Below are positions 39,800-42,808 of a DNA stretch of 43,400 nt, piece after piece; position 1 is the first letter of the stretch; the number at the start of each line of letters is the position of its first letter. The notes under the pieces were generated by a model that searched no databases, was not told the origin of the DNA, and saw only the letters and a program-made list of their open reading frames with translations. Location: positions 1 to 43,400 of the IMG/VR virus record IMGVR_UViG_3300047557_001944; one strand, given 5' to 3'. The translations under genes and the position numbers were made by a program. The DNA comes from a virus.

Positions 39800-40030
39800 A
39801 TGTCTGAACAAAATAATGTAACCGAGCAGCAATCACATCTTCAAAGTGCTGTAACTCAACAACAAAAAATTGTAGATGAAATTAATTCTCTAAGCAATCA
39901 GTTAGTAATTAAAAGAGAGCAAGCAACTAAACTACAAGGTATTATTGAATATCTAAATGGTATTGGAGTAAAACTACCTGAAAATACTGAAGTTTCACCA
40001 GAATTTACTTCTGAAGATCCTAATAGCTAA
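39800..40030 (+). CDS. Small coiled-coil virion or assembly protein, 76 aa
   Basis: MSEQNNVTEQQSHLQSAVTQQQKIVDEINSLSNQLVIKREQATKLQGIIEYLNGIGVKL is a nearly continuous coiled coil with an acidic disordered tail. Short proteins with this QQQ-x-I-x-EIN-x-L-x-x-Q-L-x-x-KRE-x-A-x-K-x-QG-x-IEYL pattern recur among cyanophage late genes; no function is assigned that I know of. It has its own exact-consensus late promoter. A short inverted repeat (AAGATA/TATCTT, 40033-40049) follows the stop and could end the late transcript. Confidence 0.6.
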   Translation: MSEQNNVTEQQSHLQSAVTQQQKIVDEINSLSNQLVIKREQATKLQGIIEYLNGIGVKLPENTEVSPEFTSEDPNS

Positions 40031-40032
40031 TT

Positions 40033-40049
40033 AAGATATAATTTATCTT
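40033..40049 (+). terminator. Weak inverted repeat after the 76-aa gene
   Basis: AAGATA and TATCTT pair with a five-base loop two bases after the stop codon. No T-tract follows, so it is at best a weak end or stabiliser of the fibre-cluster transcript. Confidence 0.3.
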
Positions 40050-40095
40050 CAAACCTGACAGAGTGATTCTAGATAACTTTTGATATTGTGTCAAG

Positions 40096-40124
40096 TTGAC
40101 AGATAAATTTTTTTATAATATAAT
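40096..40124 (+). promoter_or_regulatory. Consensus sigma70 promoter (TTGACA-17-TATAAT)
   Basis: TTGACA at 40096-40101 and TATAAT at 40119-40124 are both exact matches and are separated by exactly 17 bases. Initiation is expected near 40131. This is the strongest host-type promoter in the window and stands alone in an otherwise late-promoter region. Confidence 0.85.
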
Positions 40125-40130
40125 ATTAAA

Positions 40131-40231
40131 GTCTTAGATTCTTTGTATCTTTGAGAATCCAAGACCCGTTCAAGGTGGTGGGACGGTTTACAAGGTGGAA
40201 CACAGAGGGGTATTTTTACCCCTCTTTTTTT
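40131..40231 (+). ncRNA. Predicted structured small RNA of about 100 nt
   Basis: Bounded by the consensus promoter and an intrinsic terminator, this interval has no ATG-initiated frame of useful length. Stem 1 begins at the predicted +1: GTCTT (40131) pairs with AAGAC (40161), and GATTCT (40137) with AGAATC (40154), across an A/C mismatch. Stem 2 is CCGTTC (40166-40171) with GGACGG (40181-40186), including one G-U pair, exposing AAGGTGGTG. CAAGGTGG recurs at 40191-40198, in a second largely single-stranded region. The third element is the terminator stem. Possible roles: a trans-acting phage sRNA, a decoy exposing Shine-Dalgarno-like AAGGUGG, or a leader attenuator for the genes downstream. 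Existence well supported by signals; function unknown. Confidence 0.72.
40204..40231 (+). terminator. Strong intrinsic terminator
   Basis: AGAGGGGTA (40204-40212) and TACCCCTCT (40217-40225) form a perfect 9-bp stem with a TTTT loop, followed by six T residues. It ends the small RNA transcript and is followed without a gap by a late promoter. Confidence 0.9.
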
Positions 40232-40238
40232 ATAAATA
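40231..40238 (+). promoter_or_regulatory. Late promoter, exact TATAAATA, for the HNH gene
   Basis: An exact late consensus begins at the last T of the terminator tract and lies 24 bases before the HNH ATG. Just downstream, AGGGCAC (40241-40247) and GTACCCT (40253-40259) can pair with one mismatch, placing a hairpin directly before the start codon. Confidence 0.68.
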
Positions 40239-40262
40239 ATAGGGCACAGAGTGTACCCTATT

Positions 40263-40553
40263 ATGAGTAATGTAGAAAAATACAGAAAAAATCAATACGA
40301 ATATATTCTCTCCAAAAAAAGAGTTCCTTGTTCAGACTGTGGTGGGTTATTTCCTGAAGTTTGTATGGATTTTCATCATTTAGATGAAGAAACAAAGGAA
40401 AATTCTTTAAAAAAATGGAGAACATCTATGTCTGGTAGAATGCGTAGATGGAGTAAAAAAAGAATTGATGAAGAATTGGAAAAATGTGTAGTTATATGTG
40501 CTAACTGTCACCGTATTAGACATTTTAAGATTGATAACCAGGACACTCCCTGA
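40263..40553 (+). CDS. Free-standing HNH homing-type endonuclease
   Basis: The ATG at 40263 gives a 96-aa basic protein; an in-frame GTG four codons upstream falls in the leader hairpin and is less likely. HNH landmarks: VPCSDCGGLFPE near residue 20, CMDFHHLDEETKE near 34 (metal-binding His pair), a basic stretch RMRRWSKKRIDEEL, and CVVICANCHRIRHF near 76-88. It is probably a mobile DNA-cleaving element placed between the small RNA unit and the CobT-like gene. It has an exact late promoter, so expression late in infection is expected. It shares the layout of the HNH protein at 11392 but differs in most residues. No intron boundaries are visible. Confidence 0.85.
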   Translation: MSNVEKYRKNQYEYILSKKRVPCSDCGGLFPEVCMDFHHLDEETKENSLKKWRTSMSGRMRRWSKKRIDEELEKCVVICANCHRIRHFKIDNQDTP

Positions 40554-40621
40554 ACTGTCCCTTTAATCTCCCAAAGACCCCTTTTTTCTTGTATGATACT
40601 AGAAGTTCAAAAGCACACCGT

Positions 40622-42808
40622 ATGTCCGTCAATCTAGAAGTCAAAGGATCACTCGCAAAGTGTCTTGCGACTGAGAACCTGATTGTTGAGCACAAGAAAG
40701 TTCCGACTGCTTGCTTTGACGTTGATCGTCGTGTTCTGACTCTTCCTACCTGGGATAGAGCATCTGCGACTGTGTATGACCTTCTTGTTGGACACGAAGT
40801 TGGTCACGCACTGTTCACCGACAATATTGACTGGACAGAAGAATATCCTGAAGTTCCCAAAGATTTTGTGAACGTTGTTGAGGATGTTCGTGTAGAACGT
40901 CTGATGAAGAAAAAGTATCCTGGTCTTTCTAAGACTTTCTACAACGGTTATAATGAACTGAATGATCAAGACTTCTTCTCTACGAAAGATGAAGATCTCA
41001 ATAAACTCTCGTTTATTGACCGCATCAATATGTACTTCAAGATTGGTGCATTCCATAACATCGAGTTCAACGATGATGAGAACGAGTTTCTGACTCGTAT
41101 CAGTAAAGTTGAAACCTTCAAAGAAGTTCTTGATATTTCTCGGGAACTTGTGGAGTATCTGAAGTATCGTCGGGAACAACTTCCTGAGATGCCTTCTAAC
41201 GTTCCTATGTCCGATGAGATGGGAAGTGGTCAGGAAGTAGAACTCCCTCAGGATCAATCTACTAATCAACCTGGTCAATCTGAAATGGAGTCTCAACCCT
41301 CCGAACAGGAAGACGGTGAACTGAATCGTACTGAAGCACCTACGGGTGAGAAGATGGATTCAGAGGGGAATGGTATGGATAACCAAAACGGTAGGGATGC
41401 TAGTAATAAGCACGGTGATCTTGAAGATGAACTGAAGTCTAAGACTTCTCGTTCCTTTGATGAGAAGTCCCAAAATTTGGTGGATAAGTTTGCTCAGGAG
41501 ACTGCTTATGTGGAACTGCCTGAAGTTATCCTTGAGAACGTTGTTATTCCTAATGAATGGGTACATCAGAAGTGCTCTGAGTTTTACAACAACGCACAAG
41601 AATCTGATGGTTATGGTACTTGGTGGAAAGAATCCCTGAAGATTTGTGTTCAAGAATACAAAGAATTCAAGAAAACTGCAGAGAAAGAAGTCTCTTATCT
41701 CGTAAAAGAGTTTGAGTGTAAGAAGTCTGCAGATCAGTATGCCCGTGCTAGCACTGCTCGCACTGGTGTTCTGGACACTCAGAAACTGCATACCTATAAG
41801 TTCAACGAAGACCTGTTCAAGAAAGTATCTGTAATTCCTGATGGTAAGAATCACGGTCTGGTCTTTATTCTTGACTGGTCTGGTTCGATGCAGGATTGGA
41901 TTCTCGATACCTGTAAGCAACTTTTCAGTTTGATTTGGTTCTGCCGAAAGGTGAACATTCCCTTTGAGGTGTATGCTTTCACTCTGGATTGCAATTCTTA
42001 TGTTGAACTGCAACCAAATCATCCCCAAACTTTCAAGAAAGTAAAGGATGTAATTGCACTGGAATCTTCTTTCCGACTGATGAATTTCTTCACCAGCAGC
42101 GTGAGCAATCGTGTTCTTGAAGAGCAGATGCAAAATGTCTGGAAGTGTGCTTACTCTTTCCAGAAACGTGCGATTGGTTCTCCTCGTCATATGGACCTTT
42201 CTGGTTCTCCTATCGGTGAATCCATCATCTGTCTGCATAAAATTATCCCTCACTTCCAGCAGAAAAATAAACTGCAGAAGGTGAATGTGGTATTCCTGAC
42301 TGATGGTGAAGGTTATGTTAATGCTGCAACCAAAGAAAAGAAGAATGGACGGGGGGAAACGTTTGTTGGTTTCACTAAATACAACAAAACAAATCTCCGT
42401 GATCGTAAAACTGGTCGAATCTATTCCAGTTATGACTATGGAAACTTCCCTGTCTATGCAAAGGTTCTGCTGCAATCTGTGAAGGACCGTTTCCCTATGG
42501 TGAATCTGGTTAACTTCAGGATTACTCCTTCCCGTGAGTTCCAGAACTGCTATCGTTGGTACGGGAATGACTACAACGAGTATGAAACTGCTAAGAAGAA
42601 ATTCAACAAAGATAGTTTCATCACCTTCAAGAACACTGGTTTCGACCAATTTAATGTGATTGCATCCAATACTCTTTCTCAAGATGAATCCTTTGAGGTG
42701 CAGGAAGGTGCTTCTAAGGCACAAATCAAGACAGCATTCTCCAAGATGCTGAATAAGAAAAAGACCAATAAGAAACTTCTCAGTGAGTTTATTGGTATGA
42801 TTGCATAA
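40622..42808 (+). CDS. cobT: Phage CobT-like protein: HExxH metallopeptidase-like motif and VWA domain
   Basis: This 728-aa protein starts at the ATG at 40622 (MSVNLEVKGSLAKCLATENL), the typical start of cyanophage CobT-like proteins; a TTG 33 bases upstream is rejected. Residues 58-62 are HEVGH within LLVGHEVGHALFTD, a zinc-metallopeptidase-type motif. A long acidic, Gln/Ser-rich linker covers about 200-265. A VWA domain begins near 410 with MIDAS motif D418-W-S420-G-S422 (FILDWSGSM) and later VFLTDGEG. CobT normally partners the AAA+ protein CobS in cobalt insertion. In phages the pair may instead act as a MoxR/VWA-type chaperone or protease complex (inference). No cobS lies in the window. 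TATGAT at 40592 could be a weak -10. G/C and codon use differ clearly from the fibre genes. Confidence 0.85.
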   Translation: MSVNLEVKGSLAKCLATENLIVEHKKVPTACFDVDRRVLTLPTWDRASATVYDLLVGHEVGHALFTDNIDWTEEYPEVPKDFVNVVEDVRVERLMKKKYPGLSKTFYNGYNELNDQDFFSTKDEDLNKLSFIDRINMYFKIGAFHNIEFNDDENEFLTRISKVETFKEVLDISRELVEYLKYRREQLPEMPSNVPMSDEMGSGQEVELPQDQSTNQPGQSEMESQPSEQEDGELNRTEAPTGEKMDSEGNGMDNQNGRDASNKHGDLEDELKSKTSRSFDEKSQNLVDKFAQETAYVELPEVILENVVIPNEWVHQKCSEFYNNAQESDGYGTWWKESLKICVQEYKEFKKTAEKEVSYLVKEFECKKSADQYARASTARTGVLDTQKLHTYKFNEDLFKKVSVIPDGKNHGLVFILDWSGSMQDWILDTCKQLFSLIWFCRKVNIPFEVYAFTLDCNSYVELQPNHPQTFKKVKDVIALESSFRLMNFFTSSVSNRVLEEQMQNVWKCAYSFQKRAIGSPRHMDLSGSPIGESIICLHKIIPHFQQKNKLQKVNVVFLTDGEGYVNAATKEKKNGRGETFVGFTKYNKTNLRDRKTGRIYSSYDYGNFPVYAKVLLQSVKDRFPMVNLVNFRITPSREFQNCYRWYGNDYNEYETAKKKFNKDSFITFKNTGFDQFNVIASNTLSQDESFEVQEGASKAQIKTAFSKMLNKKKTNKKLLSEFIGMIA

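Follow-up and report, generated by a model that had tools for sequence, protein, structure and literature searches.

Organisation of the RNA gene and its surroundings

In IMG/VR virus record IMGVR_UViG_3300047557_001944, positions 1-43,400 (the whole stretch analysed, 43.4 kb, hereafter the window), we identified a complete small-RNA gene at 40096-40231 on the plus strand, composed of a promoter, two hairpins, a linker and an intrinsic terminator. The gene and the features surrounding it are listed below.

40037-40094, minus strand: divergent promoter and conserved leader; TTGACA at 40094-40089, 17 nt, TAGAAT at 40071-40066 (11/12 match); leader CACTCTGTCAGGTTTGAAGATAA
40096-40124, plus strand: host-type (sigma-70) promoter; TTGACA at 40096-40101, 17 nt, TATAAT at 40119-40124 (12/12 match)
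40131-40165, plus strand: 5' hairpin (hairpin 1, RNAfold); predicted +1 at 40131, 6 nt past the -10 element
40144-40152, plus strand: loop of hairpin 1, 9 nt, UGUAUCUUU; family consensus UGUANCUUU
40166-40186, plus strand: hairpin 2, 6 bp, CCGUUC/GGACGG
40172-40180, plus strand: loop of hairpin 2, AAGGUGGUG, containing GGUGGUG; family core GUGGUG
40187-40203, plus strand: unpaired linker; second occurrence of GGUGG, in CAAGGUGG at 40191-40198
40204-40232, plus strand: intrinsic terminator; perfect 9-bp stem AGAGGGGUA/UACCCCUCU at 40204-40225, then a T-tract
40231-40238, plus strand: T4-type late promoter TATAAATA, assigned from sequence
40236-40244 and 40256-40264, plus strand: arms of a 9-bp hairpin (predicted fold) that pairs the HNH start codon
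40263-40553, plus strand: HNH homing-endonuclease-like gene (phrog_3106, E 1.6e-22), inserted directly behind the RNA gene and not part of the RNA
40571-40610, plus strand: probable remnant of the RNA gene, its original terminator 3' arm and spacer, GACCCCTTTTTTCTTGTATGATACTAGAAGTTCAAAAG (compare locus L040)
40622-42808, plus strand: phrog_459 peptidase gene (E 3.1e-257), the conserved downstream neighbour

The promoter, reported in the initial annotation as TTGACA-17-TATAAT, is indeed exact and has no second exact counterpart in the 43.4 kb, against an average of 0.12 expected from dinucleotide shuffles. The same annotation had placed the +1 at the base of an 11-bp stem with one mismatch; the start at 40131 stands, while the length was nearly right, RNAfold giving 12 bp (5 + 7 around one A/C mismatch) with the loop TGTATCTTT. 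Its AAGGTGG in the second loop, repeated twenty bases on, was found as CAAGGTGG at 40171-40178 and again at 40191-40198, a spacing of exactly 20 nt, and the perfect 9-bp terminator stem with its T-tract is present as described. The RNA of the window folds with -35.9 kcal/mol against -24.3 +/- 3.3 kcal/mol for shuffles (z -3.6), and none of 200 shuffles folded as well. It holds no ATG, and the distances between its motifs differ by 1 nt in alignment A4.

Distribution of the RNA family

By BLASTN the family lies at the edge of detection: the search returned one barely significant relative, Synechococcus phage S-SRM01 (E 0.06), and the remaining matches of the RNA gene reflect similarity of AT-rich promoters or terminators. 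On reading by eye, promoter, 5' hairpin, GGUGG loop, linker and terminator all recur in the S-SRM01 copy. An exact 22-mer scan of viral contigs gave no match to the RNA gene; searching IMG/VR for TTTGNATCTTTGAGAA, the conserved loop, and filtering for flanking features yielded at least about 20 copies among the matches listed. With a covariance model, 80 loci fetched through the peptidase gene yielded 34 with the RNA, and 80 fetched through the glutaredoxin gene yielded 51. The resulting alignment contains 65 matches, 64 of them distinct, from IMG/VR contigs and S-SRM01. When whole records were searched with the model, each large record carrying the RNA had one strong copy, among them S-SRM01 (240 kb), G001 (213 kb), G002 (211 kb) and G003 (247 kb); among 26 records, the RNA was absent in four and present only as a weak copy in one.

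The model search did not find the RNA in S-CRM01, S-PM2, P-SSM2, Bellamy, ACG-2014g, SynMITS9220M01, DSL-LC02 or DSL-LC03. Other cyanophage isolates gave weak hits, none above 26.6 bits, which were discarded, the best four proving on reading to be terminator-only. Nor was the family found in 300 host-family genomes, and a host origin was rejected: the two weak hits there (35.9 and 30.3 bits) show none of the conserved loops and resemble terminator pairs that arose by chance. Several copies have decayed. The one in L046 (1458-1542) has lost the promoter and hairpin 1, the one in L280 (288-367) has lost hairpin 2, and in L019-L024 little beyond the terminator is left, behind another open reading frame.

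Conservation of the fold, the unpaired motifs and the promoter

In the alignment of 64 versions, 92.9% of pair cells hold standard pairs and compensatory double changes occur in 24 of the 27 base pairs (10 of 12 modelled pairs in hairpin 1, 6 of 7 in hairpin 2 and 8 of 8 in the terminator). The covariation score is 0.477, compared with 0.208 +/- 0.008 for shuffled columns (0 of 500 as high) and 0.08-0.17 for structures slid out of place; this alignment was fitted to the covariance model, which favours structure. Because of that bias, each sequence was also folded alone, and these independent folds recovered hairpin 1 in 62/63, hairpin 2 in 62/63 and the terminator in 63/63. Judged by sequence comparison, the pattern shows an RNA fold under selection. 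Sequence conservation itself falls on the unpaired parts, namely the UGUANCUUU loop 1, the GUGGUG of loop 2 and the GGUGG of the linker, with mean unpaired probabilities of 0.92 for loop 1, 0.95 for loop 2 and 0.80 for the linker motif in the 54 members having it.

Upstream sequence was long enough to assess the promoter in 64 members; 63 of these retain it, and in all 64 the best site has a 17-nt spacer. Thirty of the 36 glutaredoxin-side promoters match at 12/12 positions and six at 11/12; on the peptidase side, 27 of 28 match at 10 to 12 of 12. Elsewhere in these loci, randomly chosen positions seldom score above 9/12. The stem starts 5-7 nt past the -10 element in 63/64 members, and the only clear promoter loss is that of L046, a shortened copy from which hairpin 1 is also gone. 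Since the promoter is conserved at fixed spacing across the members, early transcription by the host polymerase can fairly be inferred. The proposal of a self-contained RNA gene of about 100 nt behind a host-type promoter is thus borne out at the level of sequence, with promoter, hairpins and terminator kept across the 64 versions; the promoter and both stems, on whose maintenance in relatives the initial annotation had made its proposal depend, are retained with extensive covariation.

Genomic context

The RNA ends 32-45 nt upstream of the start codon of a glutaredoxin gene or of the phrog_459 peptidase gene in 77 of 86 loci, in records fetched mainly through these two genes, so that other contexts may have been missed. 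The two contexts are different genomic places, since about 135 kb separates the glutaredoxin and peptidase genes in S-SRM01. A tail-fibre region ends just before the RNA in the window, in S-SRM01 and in L004. All 36 glutaredoxin-side members carry a TATAAAT late-promoter core directly past the terminator, peptidase genes that have no RNA upstream still carry a similar short leader, and at least nine loci have an endonuclease gene separating the RNA from its neighbour. From this arrangement the downstream genes look independent of the RNA.

On the other side, the divergent promoter stands back to back with the RNA promoter; the same element adjoins the RNA in many peptidase-side relatives and is missing from many glutaredoxin-side members. 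Similar promoters form a dispersed family with several copies per genome (TTGACA-17-TA..AT followed by the leader CACTCTGTTRGGKTTGAAGATAA or AGGTTTGTTGCYKTTGAAGATAA), seen in the window, L004, L047, S-SRM01, G001 and G003. In L009, L042, L047 and L061 a copy of this family faces the peptidase gene instead of diverging from the RNA, and behind the L047 copy comes a terminator-like hairpin of its own, which makes it a candidate for a second small RNA. A further, promoter-proximal leader, TCTCAGTTCA, directly 5' of the start codon, is common to small genes, mostly in GC-richer stretches (80-100 kb of S-SRM01, L389; 120-140 kb of G001, L401; 120-140 kb of G002, L426).

Homing endonucleases behind the terminator

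Four different endonuclease genes were found directly behind the RNA terminator, in both genomic contexts, which marks the site as a homing hotspot. In addition to the HNH gene of the window, these are a homing-endonuclease relative that is GIY-YIG-like by eye (L031, 3258-3962), an HNH/NUMOD3 type (L063, 3074-3940) and an HNH/AP2 type (L221, 1285-1923). The GACCCCTTTTTTCTTGTATGATACTAGAAGTTCAAAAG string, which directly follows the RNA in L040, is separated from it in the window by the HNH insertion. A related HNH gene occupies the same position, upstream of the peptidase gene, in P-SSM2, a phage without the RNA. As the TATAAATA late promoter overlaps the 5' arm of the hairpin that pairs the HNH start codon, a late transcript would lack that arm. 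The arrangement recalls T4 homing endonucleases such as I-TevI, which are expressed only late.

Search for a target

Base pairing was searched in the start-codon regions of four phage genomes, and only some of the eight probe-and-genome tests beat shuffles; in G002 the pairing was no better than in shuffles, and in G001 the reversed probe did equally well. The best pairing involves hairpin 2 of S-SRM01, 14 nt of which match the leaders CTCAGTTCACACCACTGAACC-ATG of two genes, one encoding a GP88-family protein. It was rejected as a target, the match being lost in the homologous leaders of G001 and G002, and across these phage start-codon regions no pairing target is conserved between genomes. 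The divergent leader was also dismissed as a partner: native pairs with loop 1 barely beat swapped ones (80 of 2000 permutations as good, a comparison confounded by relatedness), and for the other motifs of the RNA native pairs were no better than swapped. Pairing with Yfr1 was set aside after the host Yfr1 copies were read, its complement being resembled in some members only, in a variable stem.

Role of the RNA

The gene probably encodes an independent and probably early, trans-acting phage small RNA of T4-like freshwater cyanophages; its transcription, early timing and action in trans are what we infer from the features above. Host RNA polymerase would start at 40131 from the near-consensus promoter, probably right after infection, and stop at the terminator; the product, about 100 nt long, would be protected by two rigid hairpins and the terminator. 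This architecture would leave three conserved motifs exposed and free of pairing: the loops UGUANCUUU and GUGGUG and, for the majority of members, the GGUGG of the linker. It would most likely work in trans, its G-rich motifs pairing with CCACC-containing host or phage RNAs or being bound by an RNA-binding protein, and gene expression might thereby be tuned during infection. The natural copies without hairpin 2 (L280) or without promoter and hairpin 1 (L046) are a counterpoint to the stand-alone RNA. We also entertain, as a speculative and rather doubtful extension, an early RNA class that hijacks host RNA-based or RNA-protein control through its paired GGUGG sites, with the gene serving in addition as a landing site for four unrelated types of homing endonuclease.

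The main alternative, although an unlikely one, is a decoy whose repeated unpaired GGUGG sites titrate a host RNA-binding protein, comparable to the GGA sites of CsrB/RsmY. Two unpaired copies of the motif in most members, and a strong promoter with a stable fold as would suit an abundant titrating RNA, speak for it; one subgroup (A4 rows L026 and L045) nevertheless has a single motif, the motif differs from GGA, and no known GGUGG-binding protein was identified for these hosts. Quite unlikely, in our judgement, is a cis-acting 5' leader or attenuator, in which the RNA would sense something and the terminator would gate read-through into the glutaredoxin or peptidase gene. The RNA is always upstream of a same-strand gene and mostly at the short distance given above, as a leader would be; however, the gene downstream is one of two unrelated genes and not a constant gene or pathway, and the endonuclease genes that can intervene have late promoters of their own. 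The window, moreover, shows no antiterminator by eye, with no complement between hairpin 2 and the terminator arm. The late promoters past the terminator, the leaders of RNA-less peptidase genes and the intervening endonuclease genes together favour the stand-alone RNA over a leader. The initial annotation had also seen a faint resemblance to the glutamine-riboswitch families of cyanobacteria and cyanophages. No known riboswitch model matches: the glnA and Downstream-peptide models are absent from 40000-40350 even at E <= 10, with no hit at the gathering score, and the idea fails on this ground.

Very improbable is a function at the DNA level where the tail-fibre module ends, such as a transcript required by a replication origin. 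The paired divergent promoters, present in the window and in many relatives, and the single strong copy per genome would agree with such a role, but the covariation reflects selection on an RNA fold, the cumulative GC skew does not turn at the RNA in any of four genomes, and many glutaredoxin-side members have no divergent promoter. We give the least credence to mimicry of a ribosome-binding or Shine-Dalgarno site, which had been suggested for the two G-rich sites. Reasoning from the known anti-Shine-Dalgarno tail, GGUGGU could bind the AUCACC close to the 3' end of 16S rRNA, one of the pairs being G-U; yet the conserved motif is GUGGUG, its U positions are themselves conserved, and the better-pairing GGAGG occurs in the loop or linker of only 2 of 64 members, for which reason the idea fails.

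Comparison with known systems

No family of Rfam 15 reaches its cut-off for the RNA, and we found no description of it in the literature, a search that did not extend to the S-SRM01 paper. The T4-like cyanophages are known to carry structured intergenic RNAs, the glnA, wcaG, manA, PhotoRC-II and Downstream-peptide motifs of Rfam (PMC9964418, PMC2864571). The cis-regulatory ones among these lie in the leaders of particular genes and none matches the window, whereas the RNA described here comes with a terminator of its own and adjoins one or other of two genes. In CsrB/RsmY, repeated G-rich motifs are likewise placed in loops and single-stranded stretches; our RNA differs in having GGUGG/GUGGUG and not GGA/ANGGA, and one or two sites in place of many, homology being judged here by the Rfam scan alone.

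The cyanobacterial small RNAs Yfr1 and Yfr2 are short and transcribed on their own, form hairpins, expose conserved motifs in unpaired stretches and act in trans by base pairing (PMC2190773, PMC2662882, PMC6778093). The cyanophage RNA resembles them in being short, with hairpins and conserved unpaired motifs, but it matches neither their sequence nor any Rfam small RNA model, and the ACUCCUCACAC of Yfr1 is absent from it; the GUGUGA half of hairpin 2, similar to a Yfr1 complement in only a part of the members, is not conserved. Stand-alone small RNAs encoded by other phages (reviewed in PMC12197685) are of the same kind and could regulate host or phage genes, and no sequence relation to them was found. 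The RNA is a new family within this known kind, the phage-encoded small RNAs. Few cyanophage small RNAs are known beyond the cis-acting Rfam motifs, and the gene described here is widespread and strongly conserved. Its presence in the cultured pair of S-SRM01 and Synechococcus KCZYC6 makes transcription, timing and targets directly testable, and the RNA would offer a handle on the RNA-level control of host and phage genes by freshwater cyanophages.
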